A stretch of DNA of 64,000 nucleotides from Sclerodactyla briareus (lineage: Eukaryota; Echinodermata; Holothuroidea; Dendrochirotida; Sclerodactylidae). The DNA is taken from positions 186,001 through 250,000 of the forward strand of contig JAODTK010000433.1 of the NCBI GenBank assembly GCA_026419785.1. The letters run 5' to 3'. Under the pieces are notes generated by a model. It was not told where the DNA came from and ran no database searches. It saw only the letters and a list, made by a program, of their open reading frames with translations. Both the position numbers and the translations under genes were made by a program. Position 1 is the first letter of the stretch. Every line of letters starts with the position of its first letter. This document shows positions 1,090-38,130 of this stretch, one piece after another.

Positions 1090-1600
1090 AGTTTTGTCGT
1101 TGGGATTACAAACGTCTGACGTGTTGAATTCAGAAGTGCCAGGACATTCGACAATCTGTGACAGTTTCTCTGACTGACTGTCTGCTAAGAAATACAAGCC
1201 TTTCGAAGACAGTTATAGTAGTTCTTCGACCTCCAGTAAACCTTCTCATCTTGCCACTCTTCCGCTTGAATTTCTCTCATTAGTCATTACCTAGCTACCC
1301 TTTCGAAGATTTTCCTTTAATTTTCTGATGTTCAGTTGCGCCCTTCCGTAGCATGACGTGACGCTATATTTCCTATCAATTTTTCGGATTGGATGCTTCG
1401 ACTATACCGTTGAGGGTTGTTTCCTGCTCTGTATTGGTACTGTATTTCAACGGGCCTGAATTCATAGGACGCCGGGGGGCTCTGAATTTGCTCGAAAGTG
1501 TCTCTAATAATATGGTGCATTTTTTCTCCTACAGACGTGCTGGGAACATCTAATTCACCCCCTGTCCGTCCTGTGTTGAGACGAGCACAACTCGAGTCCT
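1090..1600. repeat. Module A, 3' end, copy 1
   Basis: Matches about 11,420-11,960 and 23,950-24,410. Shared landmarks are GACAGTTTCTCTG near 1,160, the ATGACGTGAC...CTATATTTC segment near 1,355 and the GGCCTGAATT segment near 1,452. Only the last 500 bp of the 3.7-kb module is present here. Differences are mostly small indels. No frame is conserved between copies, so I treat it as non-coding. Confidence 0.7.
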
Positions 1601-1639
1601 TCCTCTCGTTTAACGTGGGTACTTCCACGAACTAGAACC

Positions 1640-1870
1640 CACATAGCAAAATTTCTCGGTGACACTATCAATACATATCAGTAATTCCTAACTGAATCTA
1701 CATGTCCTTTAAGGCATACGATTACCGAGTTATCTCAAGTGCGGTGAAATGTAGGAGGGCTTTTTTGATCAAATAATTAACATAATATTCGTCATAATAT
1801 TTATTGATTCAACACGAATTGTCAAACAAAAGGCATATGGAATGCTAGTTTAGTTTAGTGAATAAGGGTC
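1640..1870. repeat. Module D, internal piece, copy 1
   Basis: Shares the string CAACACGAATTGTC and the following GCATATGGAATGCTAG (about 1,810-1,850) with about 16,280-16,320 and 27,418-27,453. This is the best-conserved stretch of module D across all three units and makes a good anchor for aligning the array. Confidence 0.75.
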
Positions 1871-2564
1871 AGGAAAGACAAAATCCTCATAAACGACCCC
1901 GGAGCCACAACATCCCAGGAAAGAAAAATGAACCAAACCACTAAAGAATTCGCCCGTGATTCCTGAAAAATAAATCAAGACTGTTCTTGAACGCATTCAC
2001 ACTCTTAGAGAGAACAAATTTTCGAAGACAATTCCCTCTTGATCCACTACTCGCGTGAAGAAATATTTAACGACTGTTCCAATCTCAGCGCCTTGCCACG
2101 AAGCTTGAGACAGTGGATTCTATTTGCAGTAACATTGGAAAATTCAAAGAAGTAGTGGAAGGACAGGCCATCGAGTCCATGGACAATTTTGAAAACCTGG
2201 ATCTAGTCACCCCCAATTCGCCTCAGCTCCATGGTAGTAGACCGCGACCGAGGCCCTTAATCTCTCCTCGTAGGATAAATTTTCAGACAGTCAATCATCT
2301 AATTTGCCTCTACTCCGTTGAACGTTTTCAATAACCTGCTTGTCTCTTGCAAAGTAGGGATTCTACACTTGTACAGAATATTCCAGGTGCGGTCTCACCA
2401 GTTGCTTAAAAAGCCTGACAACAATATCATTATCAAGGCCCCGGAAAACTGAAGGACATCTAATCAAGCCAAGAATCCAATTACCTCGTCTTAGCAGCTT
2501 CGGCACACTGCTTGGAAGTTCCAAGGAAAATCAAAACAAAACCCAAGGTAGTAGTTTGAAACGA

Positions 2565-2990
2565 GCACTTGCTCGCATACCAAACAACTTAGATTTAATT
2601 TAGATAACCCATAGATCTATGAATCCATCTTATCCCATTCTTACCCCATTTTATCTCAATATCAGGAGTGGATATTCCTGCTGCCCAACAGAATCTAAAC
2701 GACGAAACAGCAAACGCGGAGATTAGACGAATGGATATTAGCCGAAAAGATCATAGATTGTAGTTTTAACGTAGCCCACCTTGCCCGCATACCCAACAAC
2801 TTAGATTCAATTTAGATAACCCCGTAGATCTCTGAATCCATCTTATCAATAGACTCGAGAGCAAATTACCGTTATCTTGGAGAAGTCGGACTGTAACACT
2901 AAGTATTTCCGAATATATTTTCGAGTCGGTTTCGGCCATTTTAATTGCTTGGTCGCGAAAATGATCCATTCATCAATTGATCTGACTAAC
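2565..2990. repeat. Module E, copy 1, with a 200-bp internal direct repeat
   Basis: Two close copies of one segment (about 2,572-2,640 and 2,775-2,850, both with CAACTTAGATT and GATCT...TGAATCCATCTTAT) lie about 205 bp apart. The 2,860-2,990 part (GCAAATTACCGTTATC, ATATTTTCGAGTCGGT, TGGTCGCGAAAATGAT) matches 17,255-17,360 in copy 2. Module E is itself tandemly repeated in copy 3 (27,720-28,740). Confidence 0.7.
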
Positions 2991-3764
2991 GTTGCACGAC
3001 AAAACGGTTAAAGGCGAGGTTCACCGTTGTCCTTCAACACCCAAAACTTTGACTCTTTCACATTTCCGACCGAAGGATTTCCTTAGTCCTTAGAAGCAGC
3101 TCCGTTTGGAAGCATACCACGGGGCGTACGTTTAGAAGCTCAATGCGCTGACTGCAACGAACAAACCCACAACCAACACCAAACAAACAAACCAAACAAC
3201 AACAGACAAACTAACGAACGACAGACAAAACCAAGTTGTGATGTCTGATTGTCTGTTTCCACTTATCTAGCTATAGCTGCTATGGACTGTTGTGAAAAGT
3301 TACCAGAATAACTGTTCGATGAAGGAACGATGCATTCACGGATTGGTAAGTGGCACCCCCAGCTGATGACGGCCCTTGTGTACCAAACCACTGGATTCTG
3401 ATTCAAGCTACACACCGCAAAACATACCCGGAAACCGACTCCTTACTTTACTGCAAAGCTGTAATCTCTGACATAGGAGATGGATGATTGCCTCATCATT
3501 AAACTTTAACGATTCGAAAACTTACAACTTTTTCGGCTCTACTGTTAGCAGCTCACGAAGTCATCAATAGATCACTGAAGTTTTTAATGCTTCGTAATTC
3601 ATGTGACACGTCACGCAACCTCGGAGGTATTTTGATAAGAACAATGAAAATGGATAACTGTCAGCAAGTTCGGCAAGGCTGGTTTTTCACTATATTTTCA
3701 ATCTCAAGAAGAATTAAAAGTATATGTCCTCTAAAGCAATGAGCACTTTGGTAACATTCACATG

Positions 3765-4200
3765 TCACTTGTATTAATTGCAACAGTTTGCTCTATGGAA
3801 TTCCAGAGTATTTGACTCACAGGCTGCAACCTCTTCAGAACAGTGCAGCCAGGCTTGTTGTGGGCTGTTCTAATTTTTTTTTCACACCATCGTTGACATC
3901 GTCCATACTTTGCACTGTTTGTCCCGTTTGAGTTCAGAATTAATTTCAAAATATTGCTATTGTGCATAAATGCATATGGCCCCATCCTATCTGTTTGAAG
4001 ACTTGTCATTTCGAGTAAATACACTCTATACCTGTCTGCCCATCACAATCAGGAGTTCTCCAACACTTGGCCAGTTCAAGTCTCAATTGATGACTCATTT
4101 TTCGAGTTGGCTTTTCATTAGGGTTGTACAGCGCTATTGGATACTTTTGTAGATTTTATCGCTTTATAAGTTATGTATTATAGATATGGTTATTTCCTAA
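3765..4200 (+). mobile_element. CR1/L2-like LINE, 3' fragment of reverse transcriptase ORF
   Basis: Conceptual translation from 3,770 gives CNSLLYGIPEYLTHRLQ followed by NSAARLVVG. This is the hallmark 'YCN-LLYG-P ... LQ-QNAAAR' block found C-terminal to the catalytic domain of CR1/L2-type LINE reverse transcriptases. A frame change follows at the T-run near 3,876. A second block near 3,980 reads APSYLFEDL, and a third (about 4,045-4,110) reads RSSPTLGQFKSQL, the family's C-terminal 'F-FKS-LKTHLF' region. The 3' end has an AGCGCT...TTATAAGTTAT context like other LINE tails here but no (ATT)n microsatellite. It is non-functional: 5'-truncated and frameshifted. It sits inside module C of unit 1 and is absent from units 2 and 3 at the matching place. 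Confidence 0.75.
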
Positions 4201-5899
4201 TAATATTCGACGGATGAACGTATCTCTGCATTGTATGTTTCCGTTCTCGTATTAGGTAAACATGAGAATAATAACAGGAATTCCTATTGTGGCTACTGCA
4301 CACTTTCAGGAGCTTTAAGGAACGGGTGGGTCAAGAGCCAATAATAGAGCTGGCTACCACAGGACCTTTGACATGAATTACTAAACACCAGCGTTACTGT
4401 GAGGATGATTTTTTTTCTATCCAATCTGTCACTAGAAAACCTGGGGGCCAATATTGGCTTCGAGGCCTAGCGGTGAGAGTACAAACAATAATGAAATTGA
4501 ACAGGAGAAACTTCTTTCCCCCCAACTACATATTTTAACAGCCTTCGAATTATAAACATTAAACATCTACGAGAAACCACTGAAAAATATGCGATTGCGA
4601 AATCTACGTAACGGTACCCTAAATATTTAATCTTTACCTAGATTACCAAATATATGACCACTGTTGAAATGTAAGTTGTTATTTGCTGTCTGCAAATAAT
4701 TTATTGTGTTCTAACCGTAACCCTATTGCAAGGACCCTCTATCTCCGAATTACGATCATAGTGCCTTCGACAGGAAATATCAAATATGAGTCTCTAGTAA
4801 AAATGCCGGCCCTAACTATAATTACAAAGTGAATGTCTGCTGATTTTTGTCCACATTGGTCCCGAAAAGGCCCAGTCCCATAACGATACGTAACAATTAA
4901 TCAAAATGAATTCGCCGAGAATCCTCGGGATGACTCGAAATGCAGCAACCAACGAGTTGAAAGAAAACCGTTTCAATCGGGCTAATTAGTGAGGACTCAT
5001 GCTCGACGACTGAGATTGGAGTTGAGCAGAGGTAATGGAGCGAGGAGACCAGCACAGCTCCGGCATGGGGTTGGGACTCCAGTCCCGTACCTTGACAATA
5101 AAGCAAAAGTATTCCTCCTCGCAATAACATGCCATAATATGATTCAACAAAGACTACATAAATATACCATTGTTCCTACATCGGCCTCTTACGACAGGAG
5201 GGATACAAAACATCTGCTACCACACATGGCACGACGAATAAACACATATAACGTAACATTTACAGCCACATGACTATAGATACCATCCCAGCCACATACA
5301 TAATTCAGTAAAAACAGGGAAACCTTTCAGCGGCGAAACGGCACTTCCACGGGAAGGGGAAGGAAGAAAATACCCAGAACCCCAAACACCGCACACCAGG
5401 AATCGAGTGACTCAAAAATACCAATAATACATGGCAAGCAATACCACACGGATGTCCTCTCGTCCAGCACGTAGAATTTCGGCAAGGATGGCTGCGACGC
5501 GGAACCTCCCAATCTCGTCCAACTTCATGGAATATAAATAGTGTGACACCCGTCTAAACGACACACCTGGGAGCCGCACACCAAGGCCAACAATCACAGC
5601 AATAATAAAACTTACGGAACCAGAACCTTTCTGGACACTAAGATTCAAAACTGCAGCACTCCGCATGGCAATGTGATAATTTGGGCCTGGAACCACACTA
5701 TCGTCACTAGAATACAGACGAGCCTAATTTGAACATGGCGAATGAGTCCGCACAGCCAATACGATCTAACGGCCATGAGTGATTGGGACACACGAGAAAC
5801 ACATTGCCGTTCGACTGCCTTCGGCCACAAATACCCCCATTCCAACTGACTCACTCAATTTGGCTCCTAATTATTCGCCCGTAGGGATTAAGACGCTAC

Positions 5900-7000
5900 C
5901 CAGTACATCCTATTATGTGATATTATTGTGATATATTATAGCCGTTATCCATAGTTACAGCAGCTTAGGCTGACCATGACTATCTCGTTGGGCAATTCCG
6001 CTTCGTGTGACTCCCCCATTATCAGTAGTGCAATGGGAACAGGAAAGACGGGACCTCATTATTTCGTCACTTTTCACATACAGTAGATGCATGGTTTAAT
6101 TACGAAACTCCAGCCCATTTCAGCCCCCTTAATCCTATTTGCCTATATCACCTAAGATATTTTTTACTCAATCTGAGCGATTTTAAGCGATCTTTGTCAT
6201 CACTTTCAGAGATATTGAGCACCGTTGGTTATCCAATAGGCGACCTGACTAGTCGTTAGAAGATGAAGATAGACGATCATTCGCTCAAAATATACATATA
6301 TATTTGAAAGCGACCTCGAAAACATTTGCTTGCTTTCAAACTGCACCTTGGTACGCGGCACGGCACAGACCGTGAGATAATCGCCTGCTGGTTCAATAGT
6401 CACGCAACTTAGATCTACGTAGTTATAGAATTTATCAGTAGCATTTCACGCAGCACTGAAACCCGTTGCCAACATTAAATTTAACCCTACTTCGCTACCC
6501 GTCATTAGTGTATCCTCTAGATTACTACGAGTAAGAGGACATTTTGCTGATACCGAGCATATCACATACGACAGAATATCGTGCTTTATGAACTATAATG
6601 TCTCGTCACTTCATCATCTCTGCCTTGAGTACACTTACCATTCCTCCACGATTGAGAGTCCTTCTATGCTCTCAACCTCTGGTAATATTGAGACGGACAG
6701 TGTAATGTGATGTCTGGATGGCAAAACATAACAATGTACTCCCACATATAGACCAGCACCGCATTGCCGCAATGAGAAAACCCTGAAAGGTTAATCCAAC
6801 TCATTATTCCCTCAATATATCTACGAAGAGACATAATCCATGTTTAACCTTGACGCATATTGCAATTTGTCCTCAACAGCCCCGGCACATCCGGGTGTTT
6901 TTACAATTCATTCACCTGTTTTGACCATTTCATTGCAACCCCACTTGTGCCATAGAATTCCTATGTCAATATTGTTTAAAACTGGTTTTATTACTAATTT
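5900..7000. repeat. Module B, copy 1 (3' part)
   Basis: Matches 34,440-35,230 in unit 3 and, in its first 260 bp, 20,150-20,390 in unit 2. Landmarks are TATAGCC...CCATAGTTAC at 5,938-5,957, the GAGATATT/AAGCGATT...TTGTCATC segment near 6,150-6,205, TATATCTACG near 6,817 and CACCTGTTTTGACCATT near 6,914. The offset to unit 3 is about 28.5 kb, or twice 14.27 kb. Confidence 0.65.
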
Positions 7001-8129
7001 TGCTAATTTAGCAGTTGTGCCATAACCGATTTTCCAACCGAATCGACAAGTACAATGGCTCTATAACGAACTTGGGGGGCCACCAGCTTATACGCCCACG
7101 TGTCCCGTCCCTTGTTCCTCATACACTGAGGGGTTTTTTGCCGCTCCATAAACTGGGGAGGAAGAATGTAGGCCTAGTCTGCTTTTGTTTCCGATGTGCA
7201 ACATAAATACCTGTGGTCGGCCTGCAGTGAACATCAAGTTCGCTACGGGATATGTTATTCACTTGTTACCGTTTGGCATCGTTTGCGAACGTTTCGTTCT
7301 CATCTTCGTTTCACCCCCCCCCCCCCCCGGCCCCCATCCGTGACTGCGACCATGGGCCTTCTCCTCTTGCTAGTTATATCAATATACCGCATGGCAACGT
7401 TGACTACTCTGGGCCGCCAAGGAAGTAGTTTCTAGATGAGAGACTGAAAGAATACACGACTGTTTCTTTTGCATAGTTTATAACAAGAATTAGGTAATGG
7501 AAACAATCGAAGTAACAAACGAAATAAAAACAATAAATTCTAATGTCGACTATTTGAACATAAGAGACCATAATTTCCACAAAGAAAAGTGTTAAAACCT
7601 GTACACAACTGTCTCATTTATCAGTTTTCGTACCAATACATGGGGTATTGATTGACGGATTGATTGTCATTCAGTGTATTCAATGATGCCAGTACAACTC
7701 AACTCTCTCATCACGGTGTGGGCAGTGGGGGATAATGTGTCCCCATCCAGCATGTCAATAACCCGCCAGTATATCAGCTTTATTTTCACCACTGTTTTAG
7801 CTCCGACTCCACTGAGAACTCTTCTTCCAGCTACAAAGACCGCAAATTTAGACTAAGTTATTCACGGCCGCGACATGTCAAGATTGTATTCGATTAACAG
7901 AAAGTCGGCCCAGGTCCGTGTATTTCTTATGGGTTCTACTTATCCATTAAGCGTTCTGACTTTGTTACGTGGAATGTGTTTTCTTCGCACGCCTCCACCC
8001 GCCGCTCCCGATCGCCACCACCCTTACTATCGATTTGTTTCACAACTGTTATCAGATGGAGCTCAGAAGGGCGATTCCATAGATTCACAAATTACATGGA
8101 CAATCTACTATATAACGCATCCATGTCGC

Positions 8130-11100
8130 ATTTGTAACCGTGATGTTGGACATTGAAAACCTCTGTCCAAGGCCCCGCTTCCCTTCTTTTGGTTGCTGTT
8201 CTTCATGTGAACCTCATGGTCCCAGTTTGGTGATTGATTGTATCATTACTTTCCTCCACCCTTTCACCGGTCGCTTTGTTGTTGCAACTGTTTTAACATA
8301 GCCCAGCAATACATATTCTTTCCTTATAAAGCGGTACAAACCGTTGTATACCGCAGTGATCGTAAGGACTTGTAGGCACCTTGCAAATACTTCCTGCCCA
8401 TCCTCATTCCTTTTTTCTTATCGCCTTTGTTTATTCAGTCCAACTTCAGTCCTTTAAGCTTCAAATAACCCCTGTTTGTTACAACTCTTCTCCCAGGCTT
8501 AGCAGATTGATAGAATCACACATTATCGTAACATTAACCGCGGCAGTTCCGCGAAAGCAGCTCTTGTTCAGATTGCAATTTGCGCACAAAACATTTACCA
8601 ACTCATGAATCTCGGCACCTCCTTGTAATGAAAATAGCGCCTGCAGCTAGTTTATTTGGAGTATACTGTAACCCCCCCCCCTTCCAATTGGACTACTTTG
8701 TGAATCGTTAAACGACACCCGTTTTCAAGGCCTCTCTAAAAGGATGACGGCCTGTATGTATATTTCGAGCTCTGCTTTGCTTGACCTGATTATTCATAAT
8801 ATGTCCTGCACTCATAACAACAAGTTAAAATCAATTCAGCTTCCGCCTTGATAAAAAAAAAATACCCTACCTCGCTTCCATTTCTCAAGTCATCATTCAT
8901 GAACATTGTACTCGGAATGTGATGAAAAAAAAAAACTTAGTCCATACCTCTTTGAGACCACCTCCTTTTCGGAAAGAAAAATAAGTACTTGAACCATCTC
9001 ACACTCCACACTTCGACAGTTGCCAATGATATTTCGGGAGAACAGTTTGTTATGCTGTCAATTGATGCAGTTTGTGAATTTATTGTTCTTGGGGTCGAAT
9101 ATCAGGGTTAACATCAAACACCTGACACTGTTTCTTTATTACAATGTTTTTTAAAATAAAAACGGGCATCGTTTCGCCGAAATGGTTACGAGTATCTAAA
9201 TATTGCCGGTCCGTGATAACGGCAGGCAGAAATGTATCTGATTTGGGAACACGAAAACACAGATTAATGAATATGCAAACGCCTTTGTCAGACAACTGTT
9301 ATTCAGTGGATAGGTGAGTTTTTCGCTGGATATTAGATACCAAGAATACTACTTCATCACAGTAACTATAATTAATTATAATAATTGTCATCATTCAAAA
9401 AATTATTTAATTTGAAATAACTCTTTGGTGTGACTTTTGTTAACCAACTTCGTTAGGATTGCAGATATGACAACCAAAAATATAGTACAATTCCCGCTGC
9501 CAAAGTGTTTTTTTTTCTATTACCAGCTTTGCTTCATGAACACGGCGGCTTTATCCGCAACTTTAGATTGGAAACATCCGTTGTGTCATTATAATTTTTG
9601 GCCCCCATTGTTTTGCCGGTTCACAATAATCCGATACGAATATACCTGCTAATTGCCACGAAAAACTTGCCAAGTCGGAAAAAGCGATAAACTGCCAGTA
9701 CGTTAAACATTCCATTTCATATTCCCATATGCAAATGGTCCCTTTCCTGACAGCTGGTCAGTTGATTTGTTTCTCGGTTTGTAATTTGCTCAGAGGCTAC
9801 AGCCATGGAATCCGGCGGGATGCCATGGCAGGCCTTTGTGATTTGGTCCGGATCTTTTCATGGAACGTTCTCACCTGGAGGTCCCCTTTAAAACCTCGCT
9901 GATTATTTTGCAAATCAAAAAAAGCGAAGAGCCTATTGTCCTGATGGTAAATTTGCGAACCAGGGGTCCCGTAAATATATCCGCAACACCTACAGTTCTA
10001 TTCTATTTCATAACCAGTCTTGCTTAAATTCAATTGTTTCACTTACACTGAAGCAAGTTTAATCAGGCTTACTGCATAGCGAATAATGTCCCGCTGCTGC
10101 GTGTAACAGGCTTCTGAGCATATCAGACTCTACAAGCCAACGTGGCAATATTACAACATGGCCTACGTGATGGTGTATTCATTTCCATGGCAACCAAACA
10201 AACAAACAAACACAACCAAACAAACAAACAAACAACCATAAAACCCACAAACAAACAGATTCAACAATATGTGGCTTTCCTAGAGGGATCCGAAATGTAA
10301 ATAGGAGGACAGTACGGTAACCGAGGGTATAGTAACATCCATCCTCATGCATCCTTCATGTGATTTTACAGAGGTAAAAGTGAACAACTCACTACAAGTC
10401 CCTAGTACCCTCTTCCCAGAATGTCTTCACAGAAAAAGGAACCCGTTGTTGTGAACCTGCTGCTAGTACATTACTTTCCATCGCAAAATCACAACCATCT
10501 TTGGCAACGTACTTCACGGACTATACAGTCTACTGATTCACTTTAGTGCTGAACCGTAGACCGGGTATATCATTTACCTATATCGCGTTATTACGGGATG
10601 TCAGTCACCCGTCCGATTTATTCGACTAGAACGGTCCACCAAAGCTATTTATCCTCCCACAGACTCGACGTTTGATCGGATAAGTTGGCAAGGAATCCAG
10701 GTCCATTAAATAGATGGGAATTTAGAAACTAACCCCCTCAAGCCACACATTCTGCGCATGCAGGTTAAACCGATTAGTCACAAGGCCACAAGCTCGTGAA
10801 CGGGACTCAAACTCTGAGTGATTGAAGGTGGAGGACTTTTTGAAATATTTTGTCACTTCCGATAACGATCGGTCACCACAAGGATATAACTTGACTTAAC
10901 GAGACAACGGTGATTGTCATTTGCCTACAAGTTCCTATAGGAATCAATTAAATCCACAGAACGCTATTCGTCGAAAAGCGTTTACCGAAGAATATAGCGT
11001 ATTGCGGGTTATGGGGGAATGTTGCGTGGTAGCCAGAAACTACATCATGATCTTAAAAATTCACGTATACGCTGTAGATGCGCACGCTCGGAGGAATTCT

Positions 11101-11960
11101 GTGGTTGGCCATCTCCAAAGCTACTCCCTGATTCTAATTCCCACCTAACAAACCATATCAGCTGGGGGTTTACGCACCCTTGCTTACATAACGTCAATTC
11201 GTATACTCATCGACCCATGACATTCCGTCTCTCCTTGTTACAATTTTGGATATGATCACCACAATTCATCTAACGACAAGCAAGTATACTATTATTTTGT
11301 CGCCTATCGAGTTTTATTTTAACATTTATCTCGAAAATCAATGTCGAAATGTTTGTCGAATTAGCGAAACCAGGTACATCATGCCTCATGTATCTACATA
11401 TAGTGCCCAGGATGATTCAGTTAGTAGACTAACGCTGACGTGTCGAATCCAGATGTCTTGAAACGGTCATACGTGGCATAGCTATTGGTATCTTAGTGGT
11501 TAGGACACTCGACAGCGTGACAGTTTCTCTGTCTGTCCGAGAAGGCAAACAAACAAGTCAAAAGACTAATAGACTCTCCCTTTAAGTAATGGGTTTTTTG
11601 TTTTTCTTTGGCATCTCCGCTTTCCCAACATTTACCCAGCTACACTTTAACCCTCGAAAATCTGAATATTGCCGTTGCCTTCCTAACAATATCTATACGT
11701 CCACTTTATGTCTATATTTCTTATTAGTTTTTTTTGATTGGATGTTCGACTTCTACCCGTTGGAGTTGTTCCCGTTTGTTCCCTGCTCTGCATTATTGCT
11801 CTATTTCAGTAGGCCCAAATTTAAGACGCTCGGGTGGGATCTAGCTCTGCATGCATGTAACCAAAATTTCTCTACTAATATGGGGGCACGGGGTTTTGTT
11901 CCCCAACATACGTTCTGTGTGACATGAACACTATTCACCGCTACCTTGTTGAGCTCATCC
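8130..11960. repeat. Module A, copy 2
   Basis: Colinear with 20,670-24,410 over its whole length. Anchors (copy 2/copy 3) are GAAAACCTCTGTCCAAGG (8,155/20,695), GCAGTTCCGCGAAAGCAGCTC (about 8,544/21,080), CTGCTAATTG.CACGAA (9,646/22,468), GCTATTTATCCTCCCACAGAC (10,644/23,249) and GGCAAACAAACAAGTCAAAAG (11,547/24,065). Unit 2 has about 250 bp not seen in unit 3 near 9,720-9,950, and lacks about 230 bp present in unit 3 near 22,110-22,365. A (CAAA)n stretch lies at 10,196-10,255. Open frames in the two copies do not correspond, so there is no sign of coding constraint. Confidence 0.8.
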
Positions 11961-12170
11961 ACACAAACTCCAACTAATTTTGGTCATGGGGACAAGCCCC
12001 CCTTGAGCAGGTCGTGGTCGGAAGGCGCAGTGGTGTCGAAAATTACCCACGGAAATTACCTCGAACAATTTCCGTTGGATTCTGATTGTTGTGTCGTTAA
12101 TCATGAAATTCGCCTGCTCCCCTATAATTGAAAAAAGAACATGATTTGGTTACAGACAGTAAACGTAGAC

Positions 12171-13823
12171 CAGGGGCGGAGATTTGTGTTGCGTGGGGGG
12201 AGGACGGGACAAGATGAATCACATCTAAGGGAGGCGCCACCACAGGTGGCGCGTAGAGTTACAAGAAAATTTCGTTTGAAGGGCCCCGTAGATTGCAGAA
12301 ACGGCACTTTCCCATGCCTATGGACGGTCAGCAGCATTTACATGATAAAGTTTTTATTTCAGGAAAGGTCTCCAAAAAATATCGCCTAGGGATCATTCAG
12401 GTTTTGCGTTGGGTGCCTGTGACATTATGACATTACGATGCAAGTGAGGTGTTATTCATGAACGGGATCAACGAAAGGGCAATGCCACCATCAATACGTT
12501 CGCGCGAAGCGCGAAATGTTGCCGGATCCAATTTGACTAACGATCGACATGCACTGACCGATAGGGGCGGCCGAGTTTTTTACTCAAAGATACGGCCCCG
12601 CGTTTTTATTTTATTGCGGACCACCAGCGCATAGGAGGGAAATTTCTAATGTGGAGCCAGACTTTGGCCAAAATGAGTATAACACGAAGCAAAACCGCAA
12701 CTGCGGGCGATGCGCGGCGGAGGAGGAAAATTATACAATTTTGGACATTCCAATTAAACGTCAGGCAATCTTTTGATATAAACTTGTCTTCACCAAAAAA
12801 TTTAATCATGTCCTGTGTTTTTTTTTTTTTTTTTTTTTTTTTTTACGAAATGTGCGTTCCCGGAGAATCTAGATGGAGATTGTATGGGTTTCCACCGCAC
12901 CGTGTGCCTGCCCACTTAGTATGTGTACCGTGCACGCAACCAACTTCCAAAAATGAGTTGCACCCATAAATTGATTGCCGAATACTCTATTATAAATTTG
13001 AAGAAGACCATATTTTGCCAAAAAAACAAAATGAAGGTCCGTTAGGTGGTAGTAGACCTAGCCCCTGTTCGCCCCAGCCATTTCCCTTCAAAGACAACAA
13101 AGTTTACACTTCTGGGCGTTCCATCAAACATTCAGGCAATATTTGGACTTCACTTTGGACAGCCTTTTCTTCACTTGAATTTGATGTCTTTCTGACAACG
13201 CAATTTGTGCCATTCCGCACCGTGTGCCCTCATAGTGATAGTATGTGTACGGACATCAACTGTCAACAAGTGGTCGCACCAATAAATAACTGAAAAGTCA
13301 CAGATCCCGGACAGGTGGTAGACACAACTAGCCCCGTAGTTCAACCCTTCACCTCAACAATAGCAATTGGTTTGACAACGTCAATGAGGAGAGACACACC
13401 AAGCTGGCAAAGCCAGTCTTATGTAAACGATAGGGATTGGAGGAGAACCCTTCTTTCATTGATAATAAGAACAACCCAGAGTATTCCCGCATTTTGTGTC
13501 AAGGCACATCATATGTCTGCAGGAAGGCCCCCTCATCATAGTTCTGACCACTACCGACACATGAAATACCCGCGCGTGGCGCGCAAAAAATTTCGAAAAT
13601 GGTGGAGCAGCAGAATTCACTCAAATTGATCATTTAGGTCAGATACATTTGTTTTTAAAATGGTTGTGATGGATATGTCGGATACAGTGTCAGCGAAATT
13701 ACAGTCGGGCTTCATATGGGGGGGGGGGGGAGGGGACAAAATGCATTGCGTCCCCCCCAACCCAAATATTGGGGGAGAAACCGTCCCCCCGTCCCCCCCC
13801 CCCTCCCATGATCGCCGCCCTTG
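12171..13823. mobile_element. Non-autonomous hAT-like DNA transposon
   Basis: The left end reads CAGGGGCGGAGAT and the right end, read on the minus strand, CAAGGGCGGCGAT, an imperfect terminal inverted repeat of the CAGGGGCGG type typical of hAT elements. Both ends are bordered by CGTAGAC (12,164-12,170 and 13,824-13,830), a 7-bp target-site duplication. hAT makes 8 bp, so one base may be lost or miscalled. G-rich subterminal tracts are inverted at the two ends. Internally there is a perfect hairpin GCGCCACC/GGTGGCGC (12,234-12,252), another TTCGCGC/GCGCGAA (12,499-12,515), a T27 run (12,818-12,844) and a degenerate direct repeat with spacing of about 320-370 bp (12,743-12,970 versus 13,112-13,290). 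No transposase frame is seen; the longest frames are about 105 codons and unrecognisable. It is present only in unit 2. Confidence 0.8.
13718..13735 (+). repeat. G13-A-G4 tract
   Basis: Runs of 13 and 4 guanines within the right subterminal region of the hAT-like element, facing C-rich runs at 13,753-13,803. It could form a G-quadruplex. The exact length is unreliable in error-prone reads. Confidence 0.5.
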
Positions 13824-26921: not shown

Positions 26922-27719
26922 AACTTGAACCGTGAAGGTTTAGATCTTGAAGCCCTGCATTTTCAGTTTTGAGGTGTTGATTGTTAACTCACACTATAGA
27001 CTTGGTTGTAGAACGCACACATTATTTCAAATTATTAGGAATGGAGTAAGTATATGAAAAATTTTTTCAATATCTATGTAATACAGTAGGCTTGTCCGCA
27101 ATATCCCATCTTTGTTGAAAGTATATAGCTAACAAGTTAAAAGTTTGCCATTTTTTTGTTATACTTTGGCAAATTTCGCCATGACAGAGGTGGCCGGCCT
27201 GCGTAATAGGATGTATATCTACGTGACTGACGCATCAATATATAGTGCTATTATTATTAATGCAGTTCATGTCTTGTAGCTTATTATAACGTGCGCACAT
27301 CCCACAAACTCAAACCCACATAGTGGAAGTACTCATATCAATATCAATACAATTGGCAGGTCGAAATGTAGCGCCGCTTAGTCAATGATCAACATAATAT
27401 GCTATATTTAATAATTCAACACGAATTGTCAAACAAAGCATATGGAATGCTAGTTTGCTGTCAATTTTTATGCTAACCGATACGCCGTTTCATTAGCAAT
27501 CACCTCGCAGATATGACTACAAAGTACCACAATACTGAAAAGTAAAAAAATGTGTTTTTTGAGTCAAAGCATTGATAGACAGTGAATCGAATCTGTAACC
27601 AAACGCACACGGACGCCTCGACACGCAAACGCGAAAAACAGTGCTTCTGTGAGTTGGACAAACTAGGCTTGAATTAATACAATTGTGATTCAACTTATAT
27701 GCTCTAACCCCTAGCACTA

Positions 27720-28740
27720 ACCTCGCATATCCACAACAAGCAAGATTAATTAGATAGACTGAATCTCATTCAGGACGCATTTGTTTTTTCAAGAATTAAT
27801 GTTCACATATACTCCCATTTTTCTCCTCATAAATTCATTTTGATACTCGAGAAAAAAAAACCCCTTTTTTTGTGGGTGTGCATCATGTTAAACCTATCTT
27901 ATGCAAGAGATTCTTTCTTCTGATCACACTCTCGGGAACTGACTCGATCACTTGGCTGTGAGAGGCTTAGAGATTACCGAACTGATTATCTCGTAATGTC
28001 TTTCGAAGCACTACCTCGCATAACAACAAGCAAGATTAATTAAGGATAGACTGAAAAACCTAATTTTGTCAGGCATCTGTTTCATAAATAATTTTCAACT
28101 ATTCTCACATTTTTCTTCTCATAGATTTCCTTTGATACAGGGACTCAAGTGTGTAAATCGGGTTAAATAACCCTCTAATATTTTTTCCGGACAGTGGCTG
28201 ATTTTTATCTTGACTGACAAAAAGACCTTGAGTGTGTATCGGTTTAAACTCCATCTATGCAAGAGTATTTTTCTGAATCAAACTCTCGACCGAACTCGAT
28301 CACTTGGCTGTGAGAGGCTCAGAGATTAGCCGAATGATTATAGATCGTAATTATTTCGAAGACACCTCGCAAACCACAAACAAATATTTAATTAAATAGA
28401 CTGAACTAATTTTGTATAAAGCATCTGTTTCATAAATTAATTTCTCTTAACTTCTCTGAAGTGTGTATCGTGTAAAACCCTCGATCAGGTATATTTTCGA
28501 TCACTACCGGACCGAGAAGGGGGGTCGCATGAAGGAGGGAAAAAGAACCAACAAGAAAGGTTTAAGTGGAAAATAGGCCTCATTTCGTAATGAAGGCAAA
28601 TGTTGTTTCATAATTCAATTATGTCACAAACTAACCTTTCTCTTACATCATAAATTTCATTGATACAGGACTTGAGTATTTATATCGGGTTAATTCCATC
28701 TATGTATTTTTTTCTCCGGATCGGTTGATAAACGGTTTTT
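27720..28740. repeat. Module E, copy 3: degenerate tandem array, period about 290-355 bp
   Basis: Three to four units. Starts of the shared segment CCTCGCA.A..CACAA.CAA then TAATTA.ATAGACTGAA are at 27,720, 28,014 and 28,369, with a fourth weaker unit from about 28,560. Each also has GATCACTTGGCTGTGAGAGGCT (27,949 and 28,299) and CTC/TTGAGTGTGTATCGGGTTAA variants (28,145, 28,230, 28,455, 28,672). Unit 2 has a single copy of these parts and unit 1 a partial duplication. Copy number has therefore changed between the large units. Confidence 0.75.
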
Positions 28741-28769
28741 GTATCCTTGGCCGCCGAAGGCAAACGGAA

Positions 28770-30460
28770 TCTATGTAGTCCCGTCTCCGTGACGGCACTG
28801 AAAGCACGATTCTGAACGCAAAGTCCTGAAAAATTTCAACTTGGTAATATTGTGGCCTATGAGTATGAAAACCATATTGTTTTTTTGTGTAGTTTCAAAA
28901 TCATTTAGGGTCAAGAGGAGTCATTTTCCTGCAAAACTTGTAAGCACAATACTAAAAACGCGAATGCGTAATGGTTCAGACTTGGTCTTCGTGGTTGTCC
29001 ATATGGAGGACAAAGAGCCTATTGATTTTTGAGTTTCGAGGTCATTCAGATCAAACAGAATGGGGTGAAAAACTGTGACATTTTTCTGAACACTATACTA
29101 GTAATTACAAATGTCTATGGGGTTAATAACTGGTCTGTGAGATTGCCTATATAGTTTACAAGGATTGTATGGCGTTTGGTACATTCCGAGTCATTCGAGT
29201 CAACAACAGTGGCTGATTCCATATATATCTTTGTAACACATAACTAGTCAGAAAAAGGTCAACCAGGCTCATGCTGGCCTTGGGTTGCCATAATGGCAAA
29301 AGATGAGGATAGATTTTCAGTGTTAACCCAAGGTCATTTGAAGATCCTGGGGGGGTGAAAAACTGAAAACTTTTAAACAAGATAACTAGGGAATTCAAAT
29401 GTCTTCACATGGCTCCATACTTTTGGTTTCTAATCTTGCCCTACAACCAAGTATAATAATTCTGTCAACTTTGATAGTGTTCCACCTCCAAGTCCTTTAA
29501 TATCATAAGAGGTCAACCACCATAATAATTAATTTCAGTAATGCGAGATCTTTTTGAAGGAAAATATCAACATTGCTGATACTTGGCCTGTGGTTGCCCA
29601 TATAGAAAAAAATCCGATATCTGGCAGTGTCATTCCAAGGGCATTTGCGTAATGGGAGGTTGAACACTGAAAAACTCGTAATCAAAAAGACAACTAGAAA
29701 AACTATTGCCTATATGGTTCATATTTTGTGTATATTTCCTTACACAAAGTAACAAAAATTCTGTTTATTTTGAGGTATTCTGTTTATTTTGAGTCATTGA
29801 GATGAACAGAGGGTCGAACCTCATACATTTTTTGTAATGCGGTATCTTTTTTTCGAAGGACATATCTACATGGCTGATGCGTGGCACCTGGGGTTGTGCC
29901 CCATATAGACATGATATATCCCGATTCTTTCCCTGTCATCGAACGCATCATTTGCGGTCGAGTGAGGTCAAACATCGGAAACTTGTGAACATCAGAATTA
30001 GAGAAGCAAAGGCCTACAGGGCGATAGTTGGTCTGTAAATTGTCCATGAAGGGTCACGGAGTCTCTTGTTTCTGGCGTGGTTTTGAGATCATCTGCAGTC
30101 CAACAAATGTCAAACCATACATCTCTTTGTGTAGTGTGTTATTAATTGAGGAATGGGCTCGATCGGACTCAACTGGGTGCCCATAAAGGGTGGATAGTTC
30201 TTAGTCTGGGTAGCGTATTCCAAGGTTGTCATTTAAGGTAACAGAGTAGCGATTGCGGAATCGACTGGAAAATGAACAATATAATGCATGTTGTTCTCAA
30301 TACTATTGGGTGTCATTCCATTGAGGATGGGAAAAGAATGGTTGTGTGGGTAATGCACTATATATGTACAGTATCCGCTCAACTTGGTGTTATTCCATTT
30401 CCCAAGGTTATTTGTGGTAAACAGAGGTTGTACATAATCCAGAGACCTTTAGAAAGTGGA
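28770..30460. repeat. AGGTCA minisatellite, locus 2 (about 11 units)
   Basis: About eleven degenerate units of 135-165 bp. Core positions are near 28,907, 29,040, 29,190, 29,330, 29,490, 29,640, 29,795, 29,955, 30,095, 30,230 and 30,410. Each has a GTTGCCCATATGG-like stretch, a GAGGTCATTTGAGGTCAAACAGAGG-like core and a CTTGTAAACA.GATAACTAG-like stretch. The 10-bp-spaced half-site triplet is clear at 29,945-29,970 (GCATCA, CGGTCG, AGGTCA) and 30,405-30,430 (AGGTTA, TGGTAA, AGGTTG). Open frames here are chance products of the repeat. Confidence 0.75.
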
Positions 30461-32240
30461 ATTTGATGAGGTGAAGAAATTCAGCCAAATCTTCTTCAAT
30501 CAGAAGCCCCCCCCCCCGTCCCGCTTCAAACCACTTGCCTACATGTGTGTGATACTATACTATGCCTTTAATTGGCTGGCACCACCAACATTGGTCCCAA
30601 TTCCTAAAATAGATTCAATCTCTCAAGTTTGGATGTGGAGTAAATTAACAATAAACTTTTGTCTGCCAGTCAGAAAATCATTGGGAAATGTGCCCCGCAC
30701 TGGATACTCAGAGGTTTTGAAGGTGGCCCCTCTGTGTTTACCTTTTCAGAGTAACACTTCCTATAGCATGCAAAAAGCACACTCTCAGGATTGGAAACTT
30801 GCAGGCTGGACGACTATTGCGTATTATTAACAGTGATTCGTGGACAAGCCCTATGAGGGGATTAAATGTGGGGTGTGTAAAAAGCAGTGAGAGGGTAGTG
30901 AGTTAGTGTGTTTGGAGGGAAAAGAAGAAAACTTCTTCTTCCCGGTGCCTCTCTATTCTGGTTGTGGACGTCCACATAAAGTGACTGTATTCGGGAAAGT
31001 GGTTGCAGGATAATCCACCATTTTAAATAATTGGCGAAGGCATACTGGAGCCATCATTAACTGAGCCACAGTCATCATTCAGAAAGGTCTAATTAAAACA
31101 GTTCAATTTACGGCTTTGACTTAAACCAGTCCACTTATGGTGATGACTTTCGCTAAGTGATCCACGTATTTACTCTAGTGACTTCACCACGTTAGCCTAG
31201 CCTGCAGTCTGCAGACATCAAGTGACCGTCGCTGGGCAGCCCACCTTAACGATGAGTGGTGAACGGTATGAACATGGCTAGAGCACCTCCCAGCTAGGTT
31301 AGTCTAGGCCTTGGCCTCCAATCATATTCATAAACCTAGCCCACAACACTGATTAAATAGTTGTAGCCTAAGCACTTAGGTAATTTGATAAACCCAGTGG
31401 CGGAGGAACCGGAATGGCTGAGCTGACTGCTGAACCATTCCATTATCTTCTTCCTTTAGACATCTAAGTTGAGCAGAATATTAAACATCGCAGCGGGCCA
31501 CCCAGTCAAATCGCAATACAGTATGGAACTCGGTTGCTTCATCTCTTAAGTTCGTTATGCCTGAGATCGACATCTGCGAATCCCTGTAATCGGCCCGGTA
31601 TTTCCTGAAATTCTCAACAAGCGTTCCTCAATCCACCTAAATCATTGTATTTGATTCATTTCTCACTGTCCGTGTGCTCTTCCTCTCAATTCATTTTCAT
31701 TTCTCACGAGAAGGCCTGGGCCATCATACGCATGCTCCTGATATTTATATGTTGATATAAAATAGAGAGGTTTCAATATAATGTTCGAAAATGATTGAAG
31801 TTAAACCTGGAAACACATCCGCCTATTGCAGAGTCCTCAGCACTGTCCTTAAATCCTTGTGAAATTCAGTTTTCTGCCTTTGCACCATCTGCAGACTGCA
31901 TTTCTAAACCTCATCACTGGCCGCTTTCCAGAATAAGTCATAAAAGTAAAAGGCCTCGAATGCAGAATGGTGCGATTTTTTAGCCTAAAATTGCAGAAAT
32001 TGTCCTCGAACTTGGTAGAAAGGCCCAGTTACTTCAATTGCCGTCAGATGACCTTTCGACCTTGGTCAAAATCAACGGCCATCTCTTGCGTTTAGTTAAA
32101 TATGCAGTTTGAGTTGGGTTGAGTGGCTAACACATATCTTGCAGGGTTTGATATACGATCATCATGGTGCTGTTGTTAAATACACAAAACCTGGAGGTCA
32201 ATGCGCTGACAAAACAAACAACAAACGAAAACGATGGCCG
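30461..32240. other. Unit-3-specific DNA, no supported gene
   Basis: Contains a 124-codon plus-strand open frame (30,456-30,830) that I do not recognise; it spans a C10-11 run near 30,508 whose length is uncertain. CAGTGGCGGAGGAACCGG at 31,395-31,412 looks like a hAT-type terminal sequence, but I found no matching opposite end. The rest shows nothing recognisable. Confidence 0.35.
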
Positions 32241-33590
32241 ATGGTTAATTGGTTCCTCCGATCAGAGCAGTGCGACTGACTGCCGTGTTTTCAGGAGAAG
32301 AAGCAATGAGGTCACGTGGATGGGTCAGTGACGACTGATGACGGCAACATGTGTACAAACCACAGATTCGGAATATCGGAATATTTTAGTCCCTCATAGG
32401 GCATAATTGAGATTAGTTCCCATAGGGCCAAAACTGCGGTTTTCTTGAGTTGTGTAATCGTGAACCACTCTCCCAATTCACGTCGAAGCCCTTTGCCCAT
32501 ATCCTCATTACACCCACATCCCTGCACGTAGGTACGAGGGCATGCAGGGCACTACTGGTTAAAAAAAAAGTTAAATAGTCTAAATAGCTAAATAGAGAAA
32601 TGGACTGGAACACACAGTATTTTAAAAGCGATACGTACTGCAGTCCGCATCTCAGTCCTCCTAGAAAACCGAGGATGTTCCTCCACTTGAAACGCTTCCC
32701 CAGGACACGCGATGACTAATCCATGACCCCACCCCTCTCCGCCAAAAAAAACAACAGCCCTGGCTACGGCTCTGTCCGCATCAGCTACGTATTTATCAAT
32801 TAATGTTTCCCCCACTTTACCGTCTCATTCTAATATTACCGACACCTCCAGTACGGTACTCGTTCCTCGTCACGCCTTCCGTTATCGTCGGTAACCAGCC
32901 ATGGAACAGTGTGTACTTAGCTTCGTTCCTATTCCTTCCGTTCAATACAGTAGGCCAGGAAAGGTTTTGTAGCCTCGCTGTGGCTACAGTGGTATGGTGG
33001 TCTACGACCTATCCATAACTAATTAAATGACAACTATGCCAGTGTTTATTTGGGGGAGGAAATGGATTCAAATGATTCGTCAGTGATTATTAATGATAAG
33101 CTCTGCTCGGGGTTAAAGTGATGTTGTAACAAAAAGATAAATGTCCCATTGACCCTCAAATTTGAGTCTTCAACCCTCGGGACTGTCGTTATTTCTTACA
33201 CACGAACCAGCGAAACGAGAGCATGACGTTCCTACAACTAAGCAAATAAGGTGGACAAACAGACATATACATTACACAAACATATACTATACATATAAAT
33301 AACAGAAAAAAACATTGCCAAATGGTTCGAAAACATGTTTTCTCAATCATTTGTTAATTTGCTAATAACAATAGCAGTAGTTTTCATATTGTTACCGAGA
33401 ATATTACGACCAAACGAACTAAAAATGTTTGGTGTTTCCGAAAACTGTCTGCAAACGCTTTGAAAACACTGCTCGAACAAAGTTTTAGCATTTGAACGCT
33501 GATGGGTTCGAACGCTCAGTTGAAATGTTACGGGAACTTGTATGGCGTCGTACTCGCATTCGCTAACCGGAGAATATAAACGGAATAACC
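32240..33590. repeat. Module C, copy 3
   Basis: Partner of 17,680-19,060. On the minus strand, near 32,775-32,735, GCCGTAGCCAGGG followed by a T-run and a G-rich stretch resembles the GGCGTAGCCAGG end of hAT-type elements. Weak traces of the same are in copy 2 (about 18,155-18,185). Module C may therefore contain a very old DNA-transposon remnant. No coding frame is shared by the copies. Confidence 0.75.
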
Positions 33591-33989
33591 ATGATCCTTC
33601 TTTATTGGAGGAAGGACACTTATATTTTTGTCTCCCTTTGACTCAGCCGCGCGCACCTGTGACGCTCGAACAATTTGCAATAAGCCAGTTCGTAGTTCTG
33701 AGGTACATACTCACCACAGAACAGATCGGGGGAACAGACGCCATAGCATATCGTACGGCTTACTTTAAACTGTCACCGCTTTCGAGACGCAACCAATTCA
33801 CTCATGTTTCGGTGTTATTGTGATACGTATGGGGACAATATGTTAAAGTTTGTGATTGGCAGGCTTCGTTATTACGTTCAACGTCGAACTGCGGTCATTC
33901 CCTATGACCTTTGACACGATATAACTATCATCTCATTAACTGATAACTCTGAACAGGCTTATCTGACTAATCCATCTCGACAGTTACTT

Positions 33990-35230
33990 TCATGTCTCGA
34001 CATGTATTTGATAGTGCTTATACTGACCTCTTGATCTTCATATTCGGTCTCGATAATGGTATCTGTCCATTCCAATTCGTGAATTGCTTCTTTCCATGTG
34101 GCCTGTGACCCTTGCCGACTGTTCCACCGCCGCGTGTCTCATCACCGGCTATCTGGGATTGTTTATTTTGTGCATTTCATAGTCCTATATAAATGGACTA
34201 CCCTCGCATCCCCCGTAGTATATTATTATTATCATTTCACAGGTAAATATTACGGCGGATATTCAGCTGATGCCCTGTGTATCATTTGTTCTTTCGATTA
34301 ATGATGTATATAATAAGTAATTGGCAGACACATCAACGTTGTCTGCCATTCATCTCCATAGTTTTCTTTAATTGAGTATTTACCTCTGTCAGGCGCACTT
34401 TAATACATGTGAATATTATGTAATTGCCTCGCGGTCCTGCTTATATCCTGTGAGTTTATTTGTCATTCTTTTAATGTATTGTGATCTGTTATAGCCTTTT
34501 ACCTATAGTTACTAAGTTTAGCTGCACGGGGAATATCGCAAGGGATATTAACGCTTGTGAGCACCCCCTGTATTCAGACGTAAATGAAAAGGGGAACGAC
34601 GAGAAACTCTCTAACCCCTGTGACCGTAACTGAAAATAATTTCCTTCCAAGTTAGTGGACACAATTGCGCGAGTCAGGCCATGAGTCAGCAATTTAAGTT
34701 CCTTATATCTTATGTCGCTATACCCTGAGATATTTTAATGATTCAAGCGATTCTTGTCATCGATATGGATAACTTGGTTTTATTCTGTTCATAAATCATA
34801 CATAATCATAAAAAACAACGTTGAGCAATTGCCATGCTCTCTAGACTTACCTTATTACTAATTTTAATTGAAGAATGTGTTATGTTCTGCCACTCAGAAA
34901 CCACATTACAATCAATGCCTCCCAGCCCACAGTTGAATAATGTGGAAGAACCCTAATGTTATAGCCAAGTCTTTTTTTCCTTTTTATATCTACGGAAAGA
35001 CAAACACAGATATATGTTCGCAGCCCCGACTGCGTCCCCCCAACTACCCGATAAGAGTAGACGCCTACTCAATGCTCAATCCGTCCCCACATGTTTTTTA
35101 AAAAAAACCCATTTTTTTGTTTTTCACCTGTAGACCATTCATTGGGACAATTCTCTCATTAGCCGCAAAGCTCCACTGGCCATTCCTTTATACCTCGGTT
35201 ATTTTACCTGTTAATCTATGTGAGTTAAGA
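33990..35230. repeat. Module B, copy 3
   Basis: Joins the part seen in unit 2 (33,990-34,600 versus 19,690-20,390) to the part seen in unit 1 (34,440-35,230 versus 5,900-7,000). It is therefore the only place where the whole module can be read. Confidence 0.75.
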
Positions 35231-35640
35231 GAATGCCTTTCTTCCAGTGCGGCATTGTGACGATTGGCGACTACGTCTATTCCACCCGCCTCGCATGTAT
35301 CAATCACCGGCTATCTTGGATTGTTTATTTTGTGCATTTCATATTCCCATATGAATCTGCATCCACCATGTGTATATTATTATTACTCAAGTACATATTA
35401 CGCCGGGATATTCAGACGATGCCTTCTGTTATTATTTCGATCGTGGATTAATGATGTATATAATTAAATATCGCAGAGAACATAAACGTTGTGGCATTTA
35501 CCCATATTTTACGTTGATGGACTATTTACCTCCGACAGGCCCTCTTTAAATACATGTGAATATTATGTAATTACCTCGCGGCCTTCCATATTCAAAGTTG
35601 ATCTGAATTCTCTTGATATCTCTCGGAGTGGTATACCCTA
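35230..35640. repeat. Module B, extra partial copy
   Basis: A second B start immediately follows the first: CCTCGCATGTATCAATCACCGG (about 35,287), GGCTATCTTGGATTGTTTATTTTGTGCATTTCAT (about 35,308), TTAATGATGTATATAAT (about 35,450) and ATACATGTGAATATTATGTAATTACCTCGCGG (about 35,550). All match 34,131-34,430. Confidence 0.75.
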
Positions 35641-37849
35641 TACCTCACTGGCTGTAGCAGAAACGCTACATGAATGGATATCGCTGCCCGCCCCCGGCCC
35701 CCGTCGTCAATTAATCACACCACTAATTGGCTATAAATATAACAGACTGAAACATAATCGGACCATAGGATTACGGTACTCGTTACTGCCAGCTTATTGG
35801 TTCACTGACTATGATTGTCTCTCTTTTCCATTCAACTTGTGAATATAGTTTATTCAAAGGGAACAGTGGTTCAGGATTTACAGCGCTATTGAAACGTCTC
35901 TACGTTAAGGAATACGAATAGTATGTACGTCCATCTATAAAGTCAGTGACGAATTGCCAGTATTTGTCTTTGACCTTCCTACAGACAGTCAACTAAACAA
36001 ATGCCTTATCCATAATTCATACTTTCGGGGTTTTAAATGTTATCTTATCACATACGGTGCGAATAGGTACAAAGATGGAGATTAATAGGTCCATACGATG
36101 TGGGTATTTGAACGTCCACCACTCACCGTTTCAAGATTGACCAGTCTTGGGATATATCCTAAGTTCAAAGCCAATTAAGATCCTGACCTAACGTTATACT
36201 TATACTTGCGGTTTTTGTGATTTGGTCACGAATTTTGCGTGGAACATATTCCTAGTGGTTTCGACACAATAATCACATCACTGGCAATACACGTGATATT
36301 TGTTGGGGAGTGATCGAAGGCACCAAGTACTGATCTATTAGGTATGGTATATAAGAGTATATTTTCGATATATGTCCTATTACTCAAGTACATTTGCCCA
36401 CTGAAAGATATACACCTACACAATGGCAATTATCACCGCGGTCCCATCAACCGTTTTCCCACGCCGTACTGTTTCTGGTTGACTGGTCCTGGTCTCGTAT
36501 ATTTGGCTTTGCTAGCGGTGTTTGGCTACATTGATTGGTCGCATGTGATAACTGCTAAGAGCGGGTTAAACATAACTAAATCGACTATATCACATCTCGA
36601 GTCTAACATGTTGAGCTTCTAACTTATAATGCTAACTACATGCAGTGACTAGTACTGGAAACAACGTTTTGAACTCATGACCTGCACTCAGGCATTGTTC
36701 AAACGCTCTAAATAACTACTGAATCCGTCTGATTGACCAGTATTTTCTGTTTAGCTCACTTAAATAGGAACTGATCATAACCAGGATAACCAATCTCTTG
36801 AACTGCAACTGATGAGGACACTTTACAGGCTTTAGTAATCATATATTAGATTTAGGCCTACGATCAGTTCAACGCTTCTTCAGAAACAATAAGAAGCCAA
36901 GAGTTGTTATTGAGATGGTCATTAGTTGTTGTACCTCGTTCCATGGCCTCGAACATTATGTTCGGCTTGATGGTTGTGAACATGATCAATTAGTAGACAT
37001 AATAAGTTAAAAGCCTAACCGAAATGTAGACATAAGTAAGTTTTGGATATAATTTATGCATGGCACGAAACGAAAGTCGCGTAATAGTCGAAGGTTATAT
37101 TACTGGAATGAGAATCAGAATTAGGGTTATGGTGTTGACTATTGTTCACTGGTTCATGTTTAGTCCTGGATCTTATCGACGCTTTCGTGCCAAGGTACCG
37201 TTCCTTTGACATCGCACTTTACTCTGATCTGGTCAAACTGAGCTGTATGATTCTGCAAGGAGTTGCAATCTGCTAATTCACGATGAAGGCGGGACAGCAT
37301 ACATGACAAACACCATCCTGACACCGTACTCGCGGTAAATCAGTAACATGCCGAATCCAGTGGTGCCTAGAAACCACCTTATGTTATACACTACCACTGC
37401 GTCTAGATGGTAAGTGGGCAACTCCGCTGAAAATAGATACTGAAGCCCGCTAGACTTTGAACTCAAATAATTCTTCAATAAGAAGTCTTACAGCCCTTAT
37501 ACTATACCAATGTCCAGTTGCTCTAATTTTCCTTCAAACACCTCGTAACCTTACTCCTATAGAAGCAGCTCGTACGTGTGATATAGAAACTCCCCTGTTT
37601 AGTGGTCATTAGACCTGGGAATAACACGTCACTGACGGTCTCGTATTTGTATTTTCTGTATCAATAATATCAAGCGGAGCTAATTAGTACACCAGTTGCA
37701 AAGATATACAACGAAATATTTCCAACGTTCAATTATAACCCTAGAAAATTGTGTCTAACAATGAACCATTGCTACTCCTACCGAGTTGTCATGCTACTTT
37801 TAACCCGATTATGGTTCGTTTCAAGTCATGGAACAGCATACCTTTTCCC
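35641..37849. other. Sequence between B copies, mostly unrecognised
   Basis: Near 36,340-36,420 there is a weak further echo of module B (TATTACTCAAGTACAT as at 35,390). Otherwise I see no repeat, gene or RNA. Confidence 0.35.
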
Positions 37850-38130
37850 ATAATTTGGCACATCCCTGACGGACTGTATTACACTAGCCGCGCGAGTAGC
37901 AATCACTGACTCTCTTTCAGTCTTTATGTTGTGTTTTTTGTAGTTTTGAGTTATATACAAATATACTTACTACCGGATATTCATTCGATGTCCATTGTAA
38001 TAAATCAAATATAGATGAAAATATGAACATTATGGTATTTAGCTCTATAATTGCTTTGGTGGACTATTTACCTTGACAGGACACTCTTTCGAGACATGCT
38101 ATGTAATCCATACATTTTTCAGGGTAATTT
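37850..38130. repeat. Module B, last partial copy; end of the array
   Basis: CTAGCCGCGCGAGTAGCAATCACTG (about 37,883), ACTACCGGATATTCATTCGATG (about 37,970) and TGGTGGACTATTTACC (about 38,057) follow the order of 35,280-35,530 but are more diverged. No module of the large unit is recognised downstream. Confidence 0.6.

Follow-up and report, generated by a model that had tools for sequence, protein, structure and literature searches.

A diverged tandem triplication in a long intron of a GABA-B-receptor-like gene of Sclerodactyla briareus, with two candidate regulatory cores

Introduction

How can 64 kb of animal DNA hold a conspicuous tandem array with a very long period and no recognizable gene? 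The question is raised by a 64,000-nucleotide stretch of the holothuroid Sclerodactyla briareus (GenBank assembly GCA_026419785.1, contig JAODTK010000433.1, positions 186,001 to 250,000), referred to here as the window, in which an original prediction made from the letters alone had described a non-coding array with no gene in its unit. We find that the array comprises three diverged copies of one unit within a single intron of a GABA-B-receptor-like gene. The overall reading that we favor, and consider moderately probable, is that of an old intronic tandem triplication, now mostly decaying, in which two short cores are candidate regulatory elements. Coordinates are window positions, with negative values upstream of the window; position x corresponds to base 186,000 + x of the contig (C429, 339,299 bases).

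Results

Three collinear copies of one unit

Comparison of the array against itself by BLASTN resolves three collinear, same-strand copies (I, II, and III) at about -2.4 to 7.0, 7.0 to 20.5, and 20.5 to 35.0 kb (Table 1), a division obtained by re-cutting the array at the starting phase of the first copy (the chains had first been cut elsewhere, as U0-U3). The region from -2,500 to 35,700 contains 26 direct matches (offsets >3 kb; 10,371 aligned columns) and no inverted ones; each of 20 first-order Markov shuffles yields no direct match, and six further 38.2-kb segments of the contig, some of which overlap one another, yield zero to six direct and zero to four inverted matches. Matched pieces are 60 to 84% identical between copies, and the unit is estimated at ~11-12 kb once the large insertions of copies II and III are subtracted.

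The left end of the array precedes the window, with -2,408 (contig base ~183,592) matching 7,143. The I/II and II/III junctions fall within 6,833-7,143 and 20,277-20,673, respectively, and in-phase homology continues on the right to 34,604 (E 2e-7) and probably to 35,002 (E 0.002), past which we find a local duplicate at 35,183-35,645 and a single 104-column piece at 37,996. Copy II starts (7,143) at the phase of -2,408, and copy III can be followed as far as the phase of 6,833; the two ends of the array thus lie at nearly equal unit phase, which fits a clean tandem multiplication. The local duplicate pairs with 34,081-34,504 (~1.15 kb offset, 73%); this duplication lies inside or just after copy III and also matches 19,737-20,142 in copy II. 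Within copy III, 27,713-28,712 holds short local direct duplications with offsets of 294 to 526 bp.

Offsets between copies I and II are 9.3 to 10.4 and 14.2 to 14.7 kb, and those between copies II and III are 10.1 to 12.8 and 14.3 to 14.7 kb. This overall range of 9.3 to 14.7 kb arises through private deletions and insertions, in part through private insertions of repeats. The repeat in copy II (12,171-13,823) has at least 52 matches, the window included (40 of 3,044 candidates scored), and the inserted region of copy III (28,720-32,230) has at least 78, the window included (40 of 520 candidates scored). Each of these two large insertions is present in one copy and absent at the aligned place in the others, and both are therefore younger than the duplication. 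The segment 1,850-2,536 also matches dispersed places on the contig. In genome searches that skip very common words and in which the module at 20,600-24,400, core A, and core b (see below) were each queried alone, the module matches this locus only; the dispersed copies expected of a transposon family were found for the private insertions and not for the module or cores searched. A query of 15,900-20,200 gave 66 of 77 matches elsewhere, 64 of these in a dispersed repeat at 19,092-19,666 and two near 18.0-18.2 kb.

Direct collinear off-diagonals are recovered at every anchor that the original prediction had named (2,856 to 17,251; 3,250 to 17,621; 5,925 to 20,166; 5,924 to 34,477; 17,684 to 32,290), and its tandem arrangement with uniform module order and orientation holds, as does its dating of the duplications before the transposon insertions. 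Its two and a half repeats become three in-phase copies, its bounds of 1090 and 38130 shift to the ends given above, and its near-constant period of ~14.3 kb gives way to variable offsets. Four blocks supply 1,089 ungapped columns shared by all three copies, in which Kimura two-parameter distances are 0.437 (I-II), 0.422 (I-III), and 0.394 (II-III). Of 1,000 bootstraps, 819 place II and III closest to each other, 130 I and III, and 51 I and II; copies II and III may represent the younger split, a grouping without strong support.

The window lies inside one receptor intron

The first coding intron of the host gene measures 83,839 bases and contains the entire window. Exon 1 ends in GATAGTCAG at -10,192, followed by GTAAGT (CAG/GTAAGT), and TTTTACAG precedes the start of exon 2 at 73,648, both in phase 0. 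When joined, the two exons match GABBR1 across the junction (E 2.7e-14, chain 6wiv_A); against the same chain, exon 1 by itself gives E 1.5e-5 and exon 2 by itself 0.62, the best match for exon 2 alone being 4.7e-4 (9jqx_A). All 10 matches listed for the join are GABA-B subunits. The splice sites, the matching phase, and the GABBR1 similarity across the junction together place the array in one GABA-B-receptor-like intron.

A Pfam scan of the flanks (142 of 161 open frames of at least 100 amino acids) detects 7tm_3 and ANF_receptor among six families. Exon 1, at -10,593, encodes a putative signal peptide and part of the ligand domain; a ligand-domain exon 3 matches weakly at ~85.65 kb (E 0.0054), and a seven-helix exon lies at ~106.4 kb (GABBR2, E 6e-20). 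A TBLASTN search with stretches of human sequence locates exon 2 at 73,648-73,788 (E 0.015 and 0.060) and candidate exons at ~90.13, 98.56, 99.69, and 105.92 kb (E 0.11, 0.090, 0.003, and 5.5), which are credible through their order and strand rather than singly. The exons came from TBLASTN; among the five matches listed for an ANF_receptor profile search of the genome, none is on this contig, and a regular-expression search for the missing exon recovered exon 3 alone. The best-scoring ANF_receptor match listed for the genome (G000:C2993:60,926-61,703) is one block with in-frame stops.

The array is non-coding

Translated similarity between copies occurs in several frames and on both strands simultaneously, with stops. 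Over 7,421 ungapped aligned positions, the spacing of mismatches gives values of 1.318, 1.286, and 1.270 at lags 2, 3, and 4, with no peak at lag 3, and 38 of 211 gap lengths are divisible by three. A codon-phase test in 90-base windows gave none at p<0.05 among the six usable windows. At E 0.01, Pfam recognizes none of 148 open frames of at least 54 amino acids in 0.9-25.6 kb and none of 78 of at least 72 amino acids in 25.9-64 kb, and Rfam at its cut-offs finds no family in the window. The array is non-coding.

Two cores are kept in all three copies

Three copies that have drifted side by side in one genome permit a within-genome footprinting test. Six blocks entered the three-way alignment; a and E were excluded, and the test covered A, c, C, and the alignable portion of b. 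Two cores, each about 60-120 bp long, have stayed alike in every copy, with 47 of 50 (core A) and 45 of 50 (core b) columns identical at best, and the permutation z for clustered three-way identity is 6.1 for core A (repeat 6.4) and 5.9 for core b (repeat 5.6). None of the 27 small-repeat control triplets, many of which have members in common and hence are not independent, comes as high as either core. The controls consist of 17 dispersed-repeat triplets (z up to 4.26, with at most 43 of 50 columns identical) and 10 triplets of a second set, T9 (z up to 2.47, with at most 43 columns identical); the original T9 transposon control (10 triplets) was discarded for mixed strands, and the redone version was used. 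A genome search with either core gives three matches, each of them at this locus, and such confinement makes recent transposon insertions an unlikely source. Footprinting across the copies thus points to two short elements of a GABA-B-type receptor gene that we tentatively regard as candidate intronic regulatory elements. Pairwise MAFFT dispersion is 1.1 to 3.9 over ten blocks, a range that lacks a control and is hence not counted as constraint.

Table 1. Positions of the host intron, tandem copies, cores, collinear matches, and inserted repeats
Feature	Position	Strand or orientation	Basis or remark
First coding intron, GABA-B-receptor-like gene	-10,191..73,647 (contig 175,809-259,647)	+	encloses whole window, 1..64000
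Copy I	1..6990 (part in window); start about -2,408	+	matches -2408..-854/7143..8639, 1141..1542/11502..11917, 1636..6053/16111..20277
Copy II	6990..20475	+	collinear self-matches
Copy III	20475..35002	+	collinear self-matches; final 0.4 kb on weak match, E 0.002
Core A, copy I	1772..1851	+	three-way alignment
Core A, copy II	16245..16320	+	three-way alignment
Core A, copy III	27384..27456	+	three-way alignment
Core b, copy I	about -1,009..-885 (outside window)		three-way alignment
Core b, copy II	8485..8609	+	three-way alignment
Core b, copy III	21037..21150	+	three-way alignment
Chain I-II	-2408..-854 / 7143..8639	direct	
Chain I-III	-1278..-777 / 20684..21254	direct	
Chain I-II	1141..1542 / 11502..11917	direct	
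Chain I-III	1142..1478 / 24022..24345	direct	
Chain I-II	1636..1850 / 16111..16320	direct	
Chain I-III	1611..1851 / 27287..27456	direct	
Chain I-II	2856..3006 / 17251..17397	direct	
Chain I-II	3250..3398 / 17621..17763	direct	
Chain I-II	4250..4401 / 18909..19054	direct	
Chain I-II and I-III	5924..6053 / 20166..20277 and 34477..34604	direct	
Chain I-III	6779..6833 / 34949..35002	direct	weak, E 0.002
Chain II-III	8134..11873 / 20673..24379	direct	
Chain II-III	15203..15651 / 25290..25804	direct	
Chain II-III	15937..17201 / 27137..28711	direct	
Chain II-III	17684..18917 / 32290..33509	direct	
Chain II-III	19705..20194 / 34007..34511	direct	
Private insertion, copy II: ~1.65-kb dispersed repeat (transposon relic)	12171..13823		genomic copies 72-84% identical
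Private insertion(s), copy III: dispersed repeats	28720..32230		II to III offset 11.5 kb before and 14.6 kb after
Dispersed repeat, copy I	5448..5916		nine other places match at 71-80%

Discussion

In the history that best accounts for these features, an ~11-12 kb piece of the first coding intron was multiplied into three head-to-tail copies. The multiplication is ancient, as the copies have come to disagree at roughly 28-40% of aligned sites, and each copy has since acquired its own deletions and repeat insertions. Most of the array has drifted without protein-level constraint, and the two cores, near-identical in all copies, would most likely have persisted as DNA regulatory elements of the host gene, e.g., intronic enhancers, possibly redundant among copies. 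A more specific proposal, in which selection has held the cores in every copy since the triplication and the three tandem regulatory modules form a redundant enhancer series that tunes the receptor, strikes us as rather unlikely. The cores exceed the three-way controls while the pairwise controls reveal no excess, and for the latter reason the regulatory reading stays tentative.

Several further observations count against the preferred reading, and those on clustering also lend weight to a purely neutral triplication, in which part of a long intron was duplicated by chance and the cores either survived through luck or record gene conversion. Duplications of this kind are tolerated in long introns. 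Pairwise identity clustering reaches p<0.05 in two of 14 array alignments versus 11 of 86 control alignments, the latter from other repeats of the contig together with a small number of local duplicates that lie within the array, and is thus not above that of other repeats (median dispersion 1.55 versus 1.11). The cores occur in only two of the four testable three-way blocks, c and C being unclustered (z 0.9 and -0.7), and in a and E one copy failed to align, which precluded a three-way comparison. Among 105 chunk-triplets of a larger, 1.65-kb transposon, which are not identity-matched, being of higher identity and perhaps formerly coding, z reaches 5.63, as high as core b (99th percentile 4.16). 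The host gene itself appears to shift frame mid-exon in two or three places (~90,130, ~105,900, and ~106,600; contig ~276.1, 291.9, and 292.6 kb), and exon 3 has no obvious AG acceptor where the similarity starts; the gene may be a pseudogene or contain assembly errors. What speaks for constraint instead is that both cores stand above every small-repeat control triplet and that equally strong conversion tracts of ~60-120 bp in three copies would be less expected than constraint. We give neutral triplication an appreciable chance, short of even, and retain the decaying triplication with regulatory cores as our preferred reading.

Other explanations fare less well. A non-coding RNA carried by the unit, whether long or in the form of a microRNA-like hairpin in core A, would be consistent with the 24-25-bp hairpin that core A forms on the minus strand in two of the copies (z -2.74 in II and -3.65 in III, best of 12 folds); copy I lacks this fold (z -0.29), consensus folds of the two cores have 0 of 18 and 0 of 17 pairs changed on both sides, z falls below -3 in 1.35% of 5,094 array windows, and to the absence of Rfam families at cut-off in the window is added that of any match at E up to 1 in 7,900-9,600, all of which renders this explanation improbable. 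A microRNA cluster was rejected, as a conserved hairpin with compensatory changes was not found in each copy, and a CRISPR-repeat Rfam match in 15,900-16,700 was disregarded as sub-threshold. Haplotypes or misjoined contigs placed end to end might be suspected in a draft assembly of 3,171 contigs; this is very improbable given divergence at about 30% of sites, far beyond allelic, the private insertions, and receptor exons that flank the array on one contig in the correct order and orientation. The frame changes in host exons suggest that the draft may hold single-base errors, which could obscure the exons of a tandem protein-gene array. Such an array was rejected and has a negligible chance of being real, with no frames conserved between units, no codon periodicity, and no Pfam match at E 0.01 among the 148 and 78 open frames scanned, whereas a like search of the flanks detects the receptor.

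The original prediction had called a gene-free tandem unit of this length unusual. Its non-coding nature stands, and the oddity of the missing gene dissolves because the whole window is inside one intron. Two of the options it offered, hidden-exon genes and a macrosatellite, are set aside for want of a codon signal and of sufficient copy number and similarity, respectively; a duplicated regulatory or non-coding RNA locus is still a candidate reading of the two short cores. A single intron can thus fill a seemingly gene-less 64-kb window, and a striking array of long period can turn out to be a triplication of old date within an intron.

DXZ4, D4Z4, and other macrosatellites consist of many near-identical units of about 3 kb. 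The array shares with them a large non-coding tandem unit and differs in its three diverged 11-12 kb units, and we rejected a macrosatellite on this ground. The host exons resemble GABBR1 and GABBR2 in their ligand-binding and seven-helix regions; what sets the gene described here apart is an 83.8-kb first coding intron that holds the triplication, and a limited literature search found no earlier report of such a triplication in a GABA-B receptor gene intron. In one report (PMC4820808), local repeats (LRs) of the Firre locus are sequences repeated within one locus and not elsewhere, and the intronic local repeat R0, bound by CTCF and RAD21, can work as a DNA enhancer element. As with these LRs, the searched parts of the array are confined to one locus, and like R0 they are intronic; the copies of the array are collinear and share one orientation. 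Firre is a long non-coding RNA locus, whereas the tandem segment of 11-12 kb described here occupies the intron of a protein gene. Human segmental duplications, according to a second report (PMC13333887), multiply putative regulatory elements into related families that were tested by self-transcribing active regulatory region sequencing (STARR-seq) and CRISPR interference (CRISPRi). The array likewise comprises duplicated non-coding DNA with related putative regulatory elements; the human elements were functionally assayed, whereas the three old local copies described here are read from their DNA letters.

Additional repeats on the contig

A minisatellite at 40,879-41,456 consists of about four ~141-bp units with 79% matches. 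Two more tandem arrays lie outside the window, at 79,743-82,633 and 114,861-115,961, and their self-matches have minimum offsets of 88 and 87 bp, respectively. The upstream flank at -59,547 to -51,490 contains a local direct duplication at an offset of 4.6-5.2 kb, 75-80% identical, with related pieces near -82 kb.

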